A DNA stretch of 46,407 nt from Planctomycetota bacterium. Its GTDB lineage: Bacteria; Planctomycetota; Planctomycetia; Planctomycetales; Planctomycetaceae. The position numbers and the translations under genes are program-made. The stretch covers positions 1 to 46,407 of the forward strand of contig QWPB01000134.1 of NCBI GenBank assembly GCA_003671275.1, given 5' to 3'. This document shows, one piece after another, positions 1,903 through 6,854 of the stretch (position 1 is the first letter of the stretch; each line of letters opens with the position of its first letter). A model generated the notes under the pieces. That model was given only the letters and a program-made list of their open reading frames with translations, was not told the origin of the DNA and ran no database searches.

Positions 1903-4900
1903 TCAATACCCCAGGTTTGGCATCAGCCAGCGTTCGACTTCCGCCACGGTCTGACCGCTGCGGGCCGCGTAGCTTTCGACCTGGTCCTTCGTGATCCGGT
2001 CGACGCTGAAGTACCTGGCAGCGGGGTGCGCGAACAGCAGGCCGCTGACGCTGGCGGCGGGGTACATGGCGTAGCTTTCGGTCAGGGTGATGCCGGTCTG
2101 GTTCTCGGCGTCGAGCAGGTCGAACAGTTGGCGTTTGCGCGTGTGGTCGGGGCAGGCGGGGTAGCCGTAGGCCGGGCGGATGCCGCGGTACTTTTCCTCG
2201 ATCATGTCGGCACTCGTCAGCCATTCGGTCTGCCCGAAGCCCCAGGCTTTGCGGGCCTCGGCGTGGATGTACTCGGCGAACGCCTCAGCCAAGCGATCGG
2301 CGAGGGCTTTCGTCAGGATCGAGTTGTACTCATCGTGGTCAGCTTCGAAGACCTTAACCAGTTCATCACACCCGTGACCGGCTGTGACAGCGAAAGCTCC
2401 GATCGAGTCGACGCGACCGCTGTCCTGCGGAGCGATGTAGTCGGCGAGGGAGCGGAAGTCTTTTTGACCGGGGCGTTCCCATTGCTGGCGGAGCATGGGG
2501 ACGGTGAGTGGTGAGTGGTGAGTGGTGAGTGAAAGAGTCTTCTCTAAGTCGAGAGCGTCAGCACCAGAAGTAATCGCTGGGGTGTCGATGATGCGGTAGC
2601 GGACGCCGATTTTTTCGCTGGCGATTTGTTCCAGAATGCCCGCTTCGACCAGTTGAGCGAACGTCTTTTTGACGGTCGAGGGGAAGACCTTTTTGGCCTT
2701 CAGTGGCTCAGCGATACGTTCTTCACTGAAGGGGCCGGTCTGGACCTCGATAGCGTTGAGTACAAGCAGGGGATCACGCGTCAGGCCTTGCCGGATCGTG
2801 GCGAGGTAGGCGCGGAACCGAGCTGCCAGTGTGACCGTGGGGGGGGCTTTCACCTTCGTGGGAACCGGACGCGGAGCTGCCGCCAGCTCCGTGGGAACAA
2901 CTTGGTAACTCTTTTCCAGATGACCGTGGGGCCCCATCTGGCCAGGATCCTCGTTCAGCAACCCCGCGTCGACGAGTTGGCCGAGGACCTTGGAGACGGT
3001 GGATGCCGTAATGGCTCGCGAGGCGACCAGTTCAGTGATCACCGCCCGCGTGAACGGGCGACCGGTCTGGGCCTCGACGGCGTTGAGAATCAGCGAGGGC
3101 TCGCGGGTCAGGCCCAACTTAATCGTTGCCAGATAGGTTCGAAAACGCGGTGCCAGACGCGACGGATCGTGAGACAAGGCCGCGACCGAATCGCGGCGAT
3201 TGCGTCGCTTTTTCGGCGAACGCGAAGCATTCGAATTCTGGCTCTCCTCTCTCGGCTCTCCTCTCTCGGCTGTAATCAGAATGTCATCGCCGACCGAGTT
3301 CGCGGGCCAAAAACCGTACACGCCCTTGGCCGTAAACAGCTTCTCGGCCACGATCCGGTCGAGCAGCTGGTTGGCGTCATCGAACAGCTTCTTGGCCTCT
3401 TCTCCGACGACGGGGTCGGCGAAGATGGCCGGGTATTTCCCCTTGAGTTCCCACGTCTGGAAGAACGGGGACCAGTCGATGTACTGCCGCAGCACGCTGA
3501 GATCGGCCTCGATGGTCTTTGTGCCGAAGAACGCGGGCTGCGGGATGTCGACGGTGGCCCAATCGGTCTGGTGATGCCGCGTGAGGGCGACCTCGTACGA
3601 GACAAGGGACTGTTCTGAGCGGCGGGCAAAGCTGGCCCGATCGCGGTCTTGGTCGGCGCGGATTTCGGTGATGAAAGCATCCTTGGAATCGGGATCAAGC
3701 AGCTTCTCGACGGCCGGGACCGACAGCGAAGCATCGACCACATGCACGACCGGCTGGCCGTACTCGGGGGCGATCTTGACAGCTGTGTGTTTGGAGGAAG
3801 TGGTGGCCCCGCCGATGAGCAGCGGGATCGTGAACCCGCGGCGCTGCATCTCGCGCGCGACAGTCTGCATCTCTTCGAGTGAGGGCGTGATCAGCCCCGA
3901 CAGCCCGATGATGTCGACCCCTTCGGCGATGGCTGTCTCCAGAATCTTGTCGCAGGAGACCATCACCCCCAGGTCGATGACGTCAAAGCTGTTGCAGCGG
4001 AGGACGACGCCGACGATGTTCTTGCCGATATCGTGGACATCGCCTTTGACGGTGGCGAGGAGGATTTTGCCTCGGGAGGAGGGTTGAGAGTTTAGGGTTG
4101 AGGGTTGAGCGTCAGCAGCGGCCTGTGATTCGGCGGCTCTTTCGTTCAACGATAAACCCTCAACCCTCAACGCTTCCGCAGCTTCCTTCTCCGCCTCCAT
4201 AAACGGCTCAAGGTACGCCACCGCCTTCTTCATCACGCGGGCGGACTTGACCACTTGCGGCAGGAACATTTTCCCCTGCCCGAACAGGTCGCCGACGACG
4301 CTCATGCCGGCCATCAGGGGGCCCTGGATGACGTTCAGCGGGCGACCGTACTTCTGGCGGGCTTCCTCAGTGTCCTGATCAATGTGGTCGGCGATTCCCT
4401 TCAGCAGGGCGTGCTTGAGACGCTCCTCAACGGTGTCCTTCCGCCAGGCTTCAATCTGCTCGGCGGTCTCGGTCTTTCCGCTCGCGCGTGACTTGATGAC
4501 CTCGGCAAAGGCGATCAGCTTCTCGGTGGCATCGGGGTGCCGGTTGAGCAGTACATCCTCGATGTAGCCGAGCAATTCCTTATCGATCTCGTCGTAGACT
4601 TCGAGCTGGGTCGAATTGACGATCCCCATGTCGAGGCCGGCCTGGATCGCGTGATACAGGAAGGCTGCGTTCATCGCTTCGCGGACGACTTCGTTGCCGC
4701 GGAACGAGAACGAGACGTTGCTGACCCCGCCCGAGGTCAACGCGCCGGGGCACTCGATCTTGATCCGGCGAACCGCTTCGAAGAACTCGACGGCGTAATT
4801 CGCATGCTCTTCCATTCCGGTGCCGACGGTCAGGATGTTGGCGTCGAAGATAATGTCCGACGGAGCGAAGCCGACCTTCTGCGTGAGCAGGTCGTAGGCC

Positions 4901-6501
4901 CGCTTGCAGATGGCAACTTTGTGGTCAGCGGTGACAGCCTGGCCTGATTCGTCGAAGGCCATGCAGACGACGCCTGCTCCCAGGCTGCGCACGATGCGGG
5001 CCTGTTCCAGGAATTTGGCCTCGCCTTCTTTGAGCGAGATCGAGTTGACCACGCCCTTGCCCGCGAGGCACTTGAGCCCCGCTTCGATGACGCTGAACTT
5101 GGAGCTGTCGACCATGACCGGGACTTTGTTGACGTCCGGGTCGTCGGAGAGCAGGTGCAGGAAGTGGACCATCTCCTGCTCGCTGTCGAGCAGGCCCTCG
5201 TCCATGTTGACGTCGATCATGTTGGCCCCACCCTCGATCTGCTCGCGGGCGATTTTGAGGGCCTCGTCGTAGTTCTTCTCCTTAATCAGCCTCGCAAACT
5301 TGCGCGAACCGGTCACGTTGGTCCGCTCGCCGATCATGAGGAACGGCCGCTGCGCGGGTTGTGAGCCGGAAGCGTCAGCGCCCGGAGCGGCCTCGTTGAG
5401 AGTTGAGGGTTGAGAGTTGAGGGCCGGAGGGCTCAACTCAAACACATCCGTGCCACTGAAAACAGCCCCTCTACCCTTGGCACTTGTTCCCTTGTCCCTT
5501 GTCCCTTTCCTCGGCCCTAGGTCTTTGACCGCTTCCGCCGCACTCCGAATGTACGTGGGGTTCGTCCCGCAGCACCCGCCGACGATGTTGAGCCAGCCAT
5601 TCGCGGCCCACTCGCGCACGGTGGCGGTGAACTCAACCGGGTTCGAGTCGAAGCCGCCCATCCCGTCGGGCATCCCGGCGTTGGGGTAGCAGCAGATGTT
5701 CGTTCCGGCCAGGACGCGCTTGGCCAGGATCTCGACGTACTCGCGCATCTGCTTGGGGCCGATGCCGCAGTTCATCCCGATGCTGAACGCCGGGAAGTGC
5801 TCCACAGCAGCCAGGAACGCTTCGAGCGTCTGACCGGTCAGCGTGCGACCGCCCTGGAAGATCGTGGCGGAGATCATGACCGGAACGCGCCGCGCTCCCT
5901 CGTCGAAGACCTGCTGAATGGCCGACAGGCAGGCCTTCATGTTGAGCGTGTCAAAGCTCGTCTCGGGGAGCAGCAGATCGACGCCCCCTTCGATCAGACC
6001 GCGAACCTGCTCCGCGTAGCTGGACTGCATCTGGTCAAACGTCGTCGGACGGTAGCCAGGCTTGTCGGCATTGAACGACAGCTGGACCTTCGTGGGCCCG
6101 ATGCTGCCCGCCACGAACCGCGGCTTGTCGGGGGTCTTGCGCGTGTACTCATCCGCCCAGCGGCGGGCGATTCCCGCAGCTGCGATGTTGATCTCGCGCG
6201 TCAGGTCGGCCAGCTCGAACTCGGCCATCGAGAGCGGGTTGGCGTTGAAGCTGTTAGTTTCGACAATGTCGGCCCCGGCTTCGAGATACTCCTGATGCAC
6301 GCTGCCAATCAGATCGGGTTGGGTCAGACAGAGCACATCGGTCGAGTTCTTGAGATCGATCGCGTGAGCGGTAAACCGCGATCCGCGATAGTCCGGCTCC
6401 TGCAGCCCCTTGGAAAACAACAAGGCCCCCATCGACCCATCCAGAATCAGGATGCGCCGGGAGAGGAGGTCGGTCAGTTGGTCGAAAATCAAATTCGGCA
6501 C
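1903..6501 (-). CDS. metH: Cobalamin-dependent methionine synthase with a large insertion
   Basis: MetH transfers the methyl group of 5-methyl-THF to homocysteine through cobalamin. All four modules are visible. The homocysteine domain has zinc ligands in MNCGIGP and GGCCGTNP. The pterin domain has [11 protein letters not shown]. The B12 cap and binding domain has DVHDIGKN (about nt 4017-4043). The C-terminal AdoMet reactivation domain has [13 protein letters not shown] and ends [11 protein letters not shown]. The protein is about 1532 residues against about 1227 in E. coli. The excess lies mainly between SVGDDI and LRQQWERPG, splitting the reactivation domain with two winged-helix-like repeats (nt about 3159-2930 and 2828-2595). 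Five 7-bp tandem-repeat blocks fall in linkers. The start is uncertain: GTG at 6501 sits next to the first homologous residues, while a GTG at 6630 would add 43 residues unlike any MetH. It is divergent from ispG. Confidence 0.95.
2503..2530 (-). repeat. Heptamer repeat (GGTGAGT x4) inside metH
   Basis: Four perfect 7-bp units lie in tandem. On the coding strand they give a Thr/His/Ser/Pro/Leu stretch just before the reactivation domain resumes. The block marks the C-terminal edge of the large MetH insertion. The frame stays open. Confidence 0.85.
3240..3267 (-). repeat. Repeat (GGCTCTCCTCTCTC x2, built of 7-mers) inside metH
   Basis: Two perfect 14-bp units, themselves made of related 7-mers, encode an Arg/Glu-rich stretch right after the SVGDDI motif. 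The block marks the N-terminal edge of the large insertion. The frame stays open. Confidence 0.8.
4081..4169 (-). repeat. Inverted heptamer repeats (GGGTTGA units) in the metH cap/B12 linker
   Basis: Four 7-mers (GGGTTGA, GAGTTTA, GGGTTGA, GGGTTGA) occupy 4081-4108. Two inverted units (ACCCTCA x2) occupy 4156-4169. The pair could fold into a stem. It encodes a Ser/Pro/Leu/Asn-rich linker between the MetH cap helices and the DVHDIGKN cobalamin motif. Confidence 0.8.
5395..5422 (-). repeat. Heptamer repeat (GTTGAGA/GTTGAGG x4) inside metH
   Basis: Four alternating 7-mers encode a Leu-Asn-Ser-Gln-Pro-Ser-Thr-Leu type linker. It lies between the homocysteine and pterin domains of MetH. The neighbouring GCGTCAGCGCCCGGAG stretch also looks repeat-like. 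Confidence 0.8.
5474..5510 (-). repeat. Heptamer-like repeat (CTTGTCC units) inside metH
   Basis: Imperfect CTTGTTCC, CTTGTCC, CTTGTCC, CTTTCC units encode a Lys/Gly/Arg-rich linker between the first two MetH domains. It is about 50 bp from the GTTGAG block. Confidence 0.7.
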
Positions 6502-6854
6502 AGGCGATAGCTCACGATCACAGTCGACGAAACGCAGTTCGTACCGGGGGTGGGCACGGGCAGTCTTCGATCCCACGGGGTAGACATCACCATCCAGTGA
6601 TGATGATATCAATCCGTACGAATGAGACACCTTTTCAGGACAAAGGATCGTATTTTTCCGGAGTCAGAATTGCACGACCCAACCCGTTGAAAACATCGAT
6701 GCGAGGTGGTTTTGTGGCAAATAGGCCCTCGATGGGAGCGGAAAAACCACATCCATCTGTCCCGGCCAATGCACTCGCCGTCGAATCGGGTTCCGCTATG
6801 ATGCCAGTGGTTCGAATGAGTGTTCGAATCTTCGAAGCTGCAGGGAGTCTGAAC
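6502..6854. promoter_or_regulatory. Divergent metH/ispG intergenic region
   Basis: These 353 bases separate the preferred metH and ispG starts and must hold both promoters. Both genes stay open into the region, but the extra residues do not resemble either family. A small inverted repeat (ATCAC...GTGAT, about 6588-6603) is present. I could not match a cobalamin or SAM riboswitch consensus. Confidence 0.4.

Follow-up and report, generated by a model that had tools for sequence, protein, structure and literature searches.

Two Fur-type winged helices predicted within the reactivation domain of a planctomycete methionine synthase, and related grafts in other enzymes of Planctomycetaceae

The methionine synthase (MetH) encoded on contig QWPB01000134.1, from a bacterium of the family Planctomycetaceae, carries a long insert in its reactivation (AdoMet) domain, which raises the questions of what this insert is, how it arrived there and what it does for the enzyme. 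The DNA analysed here, referred to as the window, comprises 46,407 nt of this contig. Its metH gene was found as a single uninterrupted frame at positions 1903-6630 of the minus strand, coding for 1575 amino acids, and scored above cut-off for the NCBIfam metH equivalogs NF007024 and TIGR02082, in agreement with Pfam. Since homology to other MetHs begins near residue 50, the true start probably lies near residue 44-50. Pfam and NCBIfam place the homocysteine, folate, cobalamin and reactivation modules all in one chain, and with the motifs GGCCG and DVHDIG in its sequence the protein is predicted to be a methionine synthase. Directly downstream of metH lies an abortive-infection-like gene of the Abi_2 type (PF07751; 797-1714), and positions 2-352 hold an integrase-core (rve) transposase fragment that is truncated by the contig end.

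The reactivation domain of the window protein is 52% identical to that of E. coli MetH (1MSK, PF02965), and all MetH modules are present; the difference is approximately 245 additional residues in a hairpin loop. By homology, the first part of the domain covers residues 1028-1116 (3283-3549; minus strand, like all metH features below), and the remainder runs uninterrupted from residue 1380 to 1575 (1906-2493). The motif SVGDDI spans residues 1112-1117 and LRQQWERPG begins at residue 1380, and the alignment assigns residues 1117-1379 (263 residues; 2494-3282) to the whole insert. The stretch from GDD to LRQQ thus counts 263 residues, versus 12-17 in E. coli and ~18 in most family members, a figure derived from their 28-residue FWPA-to-LRQQ spacing, and the net excess is therefore ~245 amino acids. 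The initial annotation had placed an insert of about 255 extra residues relative to E. coli at 2503-3267, inside the reactivation domain. This location falls within the borders given above, position 2503 being the exact edge of a heptamer array, and its size estimate and its description of two repeats also agree with our data: the repeats show 46% identity across 79 columns and share the start LA(P/A)RFR(T/A)YLATI.

Read along the protein, the insert begins with a tether that contains a basic stretch and was predicted with a pLDDT mostly below 50 by AlphaFold2 (residues 1117-1158; 3157-3282); the heptamer-type tandem array of the N-terminal edge lies within it (3240-3271; 14-nt unit x 2.3, 7-nt unit x 4.6). 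This is followed by a first winged helix, wHTH1 (residues 1159-1234; 2929-3156), a Pro-rich tether (residues 1235-1267; 2830-2928), a second winged helix, wHTH2 (residues 1268-1347; 2590-2829), and a C-terminal tether (residues 1348-1379; 2494-2589); the two outer tethers are of low complexity. Within the latter lies the array of the other edge, GGTGAGT x 4.1, which codes for LTTHHSPLT (2503-2531). Profile and fold comparisons assign both winged helices to the type of the Fur DNA-binding domain, as detailed below.

An assembly chimera, a frameshift or an intron-like removal of the region could in principle account for such a structure, and the genome to which the window belongs is a draft in 198 contigs. 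However, the insert lies in a single open frame, and in a genus-mate (G002) a contig that begins inside a winged helix of the same insert continues in frame into the MetH reactivation domain. Also, analogous inserts are present in other genomes, one of which is complete, and the inserts are under purifying selection (see below). We therefore give an artefact almost no credence.

On the insert, Pfam alone was vague, with HTH_20 and MarR_2 at or below cut-off. Clearer results came from structure prediction and profile searches, both of which had been proposed as checks on the winged helices when these were suspected from the sequence. A profile of the Fur DNA-binding domains of the family matched the two repeats with E-values of 7e-8 and 2.5e-7, compared to 0.4 for the best of 4000 shuffled decoys. 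A profile of the repeats from the window genus, built without Fur rows, first matched the MetH insert of genome G049 (4e-15) and then the Fur proteins of the family (6e-11 to 2e-5), and hhalign aligned the insert repeats with Fur at a probability of 98.4%. The AlphaFold2 model of residues 1028-1575, for which the alignment contained no Fur proteins, showed a pLDDT of ~85-90 for wHTH1, ~77-87 for wHTH2 and below 50 for the tethers. Against solved structures this model matched the MetH reactivation domain (Z 34), after which model residues 129-221 matched Fur, PerR and Zur chains. With MetH itself set aside, Fur-family structures were the best matches of both winged-helix models (Z 13-13.6); the best Fur-type match of modelled wHTH1 had a Z of 13.5 (9a4a), and the predicted fold superimposed on the Fur-DNA complex 4rb2 with 1.4 A over 81 residues. 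When wHTH2 was folded alone, again without Fur rows, the pLDDT was 89.5, and ranks 1-31 of the structure matches were all Fur-family, rank 28 being a designed fusion that includes a Fur DNA-binding domain.

Because the profile, hhalign and predicted-structure matches all point to Fur, the repeats can be described as Fur-type DNA-binding domains that lack the metal-binding and dimerisation half. The likeness to the N-terminal domain of the Fur family (PF01475) thus comprises both the winged-helix fold and sequence ancestry. The insert differs from Fur in that the C-terminal dimerisation and metal-binding domain is absent, each wing being followed by a disordered tether and then by wHTH2 or MetH, in the loss of the metal histidines, in its position inside an enzyme, and in the presence of two copies in tandem. 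We hold with high confidence that the insert is a tandem pair of Fur-family winged helices that was grafted in frame at a hairpin loop on the surface of the MetH reactivation domain and is held there by flexible tethers, which consist of heptamer repeats at their outer ends. The winged helices of the initial annotation have thereby gained a family name.

To see how widespread such inserts are, 170 genomes of the family were surveyed, and the reactivation domain was matched in 152 of them. The comparison of planctomycete MetHs, likewise proposed earlier, revealed folded inserts in at least nine genomes, the window's included; most family MetHs carry none. The Fur type occupies the reactivation loop (site C) in G000, G002, G013, G026, G102 and G103, and the cap-cobalamin linker (site B) in G049, a complete single-contig genome. 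At site C of two further MetHs (G028 and G099; loci L018 and L129) we found a helix-turn-helix of the LuxR/GerE type, and in several relatives the site C loop is filled by a heptamer array alone. On the MetH tree G049 is placed beside the genus of the window (support 99*), and the window-genus profile has its best match in the G049 insert; the same domain therefore occupies two different linkers in sister lineages. Parsimony on this tree required five changes of insert state, in which gains and losses are indistinguishable. Several insertion events are favoured by the existence of two domain types, Fur and LuxR, and of two positions, site B and site C. Trees of the DNA-binding domains were rejected as arbiters of single or multiple origin, or of donors, as ~80 residues provide too few columns. 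These MetH inserts were found without a domain profile and all are helix-turn-helix domains, which hints at a common function.

A scan with the family profile detected full Fur proteins, partial fur copies restricted to the DNA-binding domain, and DNA-binding domains inside unrelated large enzymes. MetH is the most frequent recipient of Fur-domain grafts seen. Fusions of the hydantoinase/5-oxoprolinase A and B subunits carry the domain at two different positions in different genera: in one loop in G049, and in the A-B linker in G154 and G157 (L197, 3089-7396; L213; L214). Other hosts are an isoleucyl-tRNA synthetase (IleRS; G160), a glycerate 2-kinase (G101), DUF3891 proteins, an uncharacterised family (G040 and G051), and a likewise uncharacterised protein of G188 and G190 in which Pfam names the FUR part only and which we call ATP-grasp-like by eye. 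Of seven host proteins compared with the Pfam FUR model, five scored above its cut-off. In addition, mini-ORFs of 83-132 amino acids (among them L176, L179, L167, L168, L211, L205-L208 and L210) contain only the Fur DNA-binding domain, and several of them adjoin fur, directly upstream of it. In 197 genomes drawn from the class, the hits in large frames among the matches listed belonged to this family, save for a few at Fur level in long open frames (G074 and G090), and no such insert was seen in other families among these matches; second hits in 37 genomes of other families resembled ordinary regulators, judged by frame length.

The IleRS of G160 (L212) also contains an acyl-carrier-protein domain (PF00550, NSLDVVE motif) at residues ~296-351, besides its Fur winged helix at residues ~1101-1171. 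We considered this domain as a second frequent module and dismissed it, as G160 was the only case among the matches listed from 166 genomes. In the IleRS of G166 (L222), the other full-length match, this first loop is occupied by an intergenic palindromic repeat.

One conceivable origin, which would be compatible with any functional reading, is a selfish in-frame element that copies the module into coding loops in the manner of Rickettsia palindromic elements, which are palindromic repeats of 105-146 bp within protein-coding genes (PMC2229807). The Fur-domain grafts resemble these in being lineage-specific, in-frame insertions into unrelated conserved enzymes that are apparently tolerated (PMC2229807), and both the repeat arrays at the two edges of the window insert and the mini-ORFs, several of them beside fur, would suit such an element. 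The grafts differ in that the inserted unit is a folded domain from one of the cell's own regulators and its copies are diverged. Moreover, Rickettsia palindromic elements occur as many near-identical copies per genome, whereas the genome of the window has no second copy of the insert: its only other match is fur, the one PF01475 protein found there. With all copies old and diverged, and neither shared ends nor an adjacent transposase identified, we consider a mobile element of this kind unlikely.

The heptamer repeats themselves are rare elsewhere in the family DNA that was examined. All period-7 tandem arrays of the 46-kb window lie within metH (4079-5507 and 2503-3271): two in the homocysteine-folate linker (site A; 5395-5423 and 5474-5507), two in the cap-cobalamin linker (4079-4109 and 4155-4171), which is site B, where the sister lineage has its Fur winged helix, and one at each edge of the insert. 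Among the family's MetH genes, 15 of 37 have such arrays, never outside these three linker zones, versus none of 23 MetHs from elsewhere; the 81 kb of DNA surrounding fur genes of the family yielded none. They accompany the grafts in the window, G026, G102 and G103, and the arrays may have widened the loop ahead of the arrival of the graft. Several grafts lack arrays, so this idea is only a lead; as a general entry route the arrays were rejected, since neither G013 and G049 nor the LuxR cases nor the majority of the other hosts have them. A verrucomicrobial MetH (L119) has an intergenic-type repeat (LAPALSPGERE ... SLSPRPGGEGQGEG) translated in its homocysteine-folate linker, and the uptake of repeats at MetH linkers is therefore not confined to Planctomycetaceae.

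Whether the grafts are maintained was assessed from dN/dS values, calculated with a simple Nei-Gojobori script. In the pair G102/G103 the insert (0.080) was as constrained as the rest of MetH (0.081), compared to 0.25 and 0.36 for two disordered linkers of the same genes. Between the window and G002 the insert was 42% identical with a dN/dS of 0.32, versus 89% and 0.055 for the reactivation domain. The ATP-grasp-like pair gave 0.27 for the insert and 0.11 for the host, and the LuxR-type MetH pair 0.19 and 0.08, with dS near saturation. The inserts are thus under purifying selection, which equals that on the host in G102/G103 and is weaker than that on the host in the window lineage and the other pairs.

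The residues with which Fur contacts DNA, which we take to correspond to Tyr56, Arg57 and the minor-groove Lys15 of M. gryphiswaldense Fur, were then compared among 13 representative grafts. The residue aligned with the base-reading Arg57 was Arg or Lys in all 13, and the neighbouring Tyr position was aromatic or His in 9 of 13, while the minor-groove Arg/Lys and the Arg-Lys of the wing were mostly lost. The junction histidines (HEHF motif of the family Furs) were retained in 1/13 and 0/13; the window has T and P. In the window repeats, Ser-Lys and Lys-Lys replace the Tyr-Arg of Fur, Gly takes the place of the minor-groove residue, and the wing Arg-Lys is gone.

These data bear on the possibility that MetH acts as a trigger enzyme, in which the grafted winged helices would recognise specific DNA and be exposed or hidden as the reactivation domain swings (AdoMet or oxidised-cobalamin state). 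MetH would thereby signal methyl-group or B12 status at the level of transcription. Such a function would fit the fold and ancestry of a DNA-binding domain and the strong constraint in G102/G103, and the two copies could imitate a dimer. Its main support is that the base-reading Arg/Lys is kept in all grafts and that an unrelated DNA-binding type, LuxR/GerE, was gained at the same loop in another genus. However, IleRS, 5-oxoprolinase and glycerate kinase contain this domain too and have no regulatory logic in common, and the window copies have Ser/Lys at the DNA-contact Tyr, besides the minor-groove and wing losses. Also, no Fur box with 3 mismatches was found in the window, and the upstream metH/ispG gap contains a single weak inverted-repeat pair. 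No riboswitch or other known RNA was detected in the window at Rfam gathering scores. We regard the trigger-enzyme reading as possible though rather unlikely, and a sequence-specific regulatory role of the window insert as on balance improbable. Less probable still is a family-wide version, in which Planctomycetaceae repeatedly graft Fur domains into core enzymes (MetH, isoleucyl-tRNA synthetase, 5-oxoprolinase and glycerate kinase) and so tie them to shared DNA sites; these enzymes would then be convergent enzyme-regulators, each linked to a metabolite of its own.

The winged helices might instead tune reactivation by binding a protein partner, for example a cobalamin chaperone or the flavodoxin-type reductase. 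In favour of this, the reductase contacts the very domain in which the loop lies, protein binding is common among winged helices, and the tethers are long. Set against this, most family members lack the insert, the sister lineage carries its winged helix at the cap-cobalamin linker instead, and the domain is present in enzymes without such a partner, which makes a docking module doubtful at best.

The explanation to which we lean, with modest confidence, is a recurrent in-frame graft of Fur domains whose fold is maintained, which is blind to metal and which here has no specific DNA target. It is one instance of a recurring process in Planctomycetaceae, by which partial fur copies, and rarely another small module, come to lie in linkers and loops of large enzymes. 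The predicted fold, the Fur ancestry, the recurrence, the unbroken frame and the purifying selection are results, and from them we infer the route of insertion and the present absence of a specific target. MetH has flexible linkers that allow its modules to trade places over cobalamin (PMC10567725), and with such flexible modules and disordered tethers in a surface hairpin, the insert need not disturb the cycle. The normal MetH cycle would thus continue, as the loop is not part of the core and the extra domains would swing freely on their tethers. Selection would keep the winged helices folded after metal sensing was lost, and the window lineage most likely has no sequence-specific DNA target, the basic tether and the second helix making at most weak contacts with nucleic acid or protein. 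This reading as a tolerated graft rests on hosts without common regulation, on the other linker used in the sister lineage, and on the DNA-contact losses and fast evolution observed here. For the same reasons, and because the module recurs in unrelated enzymes, the coupling of MetH to regulation that the initial annotation had suggested has lost ground. As an account of how the insert works, we consider a tolerated, fold-maintained graft without specific DNA target an even call. Against it speak the Arg/Lys in 13/13 grafts and the aromatic or His residue in 9/13, which exceed what the fold alone would need, the helix-turn-helix nature of all the MetH inserts, and the tandem duplication in the window, which could replace the Fur dimer.

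The individual ingredients have precedent in Fur domains, Rickettsia insertions, RNA polymerase inserts and trigger enzymes. In the trigger enzymes PutA, BirA and NadR, an enzyme and a DNA-binding domain are combined in one chain, as is the case for a DNA-binding-type domain in the window MetH. The latter differs in that the insertion lies inside a catalytic module and is not an end fusion, and in that its DNA binding would be hypothetical. The BEAN/HABAS domains of RNA polymerase are polyphyletic small domains inserted repeatedly and independently into a housekeeping enzyme, the host being the difference (PMC11515920). In the open-access literature searched, we found no description of a MetH with a DNA-binding-type domain, no earlier description of recurrent grafting of one regulator's DNA-binding domain into unrelated housekeeping enzymes, and thus not this combination.

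In one bacterial family, the same transcription-factor domain has been re-used, in frame, within several conserved enzymes that are unrelated to each other, and the same MetH loop has been taken by two different helix-turn-helix types. The family thereby offers a natural series of an empty loop, a repeat-filled loop, one winged helix and two, suited to asking what gives rise to inserted domains and at what point these come to be of use. Should the grafts bind DNA, they would tie methyl-group metabolism, and the other enzymes concerned, directly to transcription.
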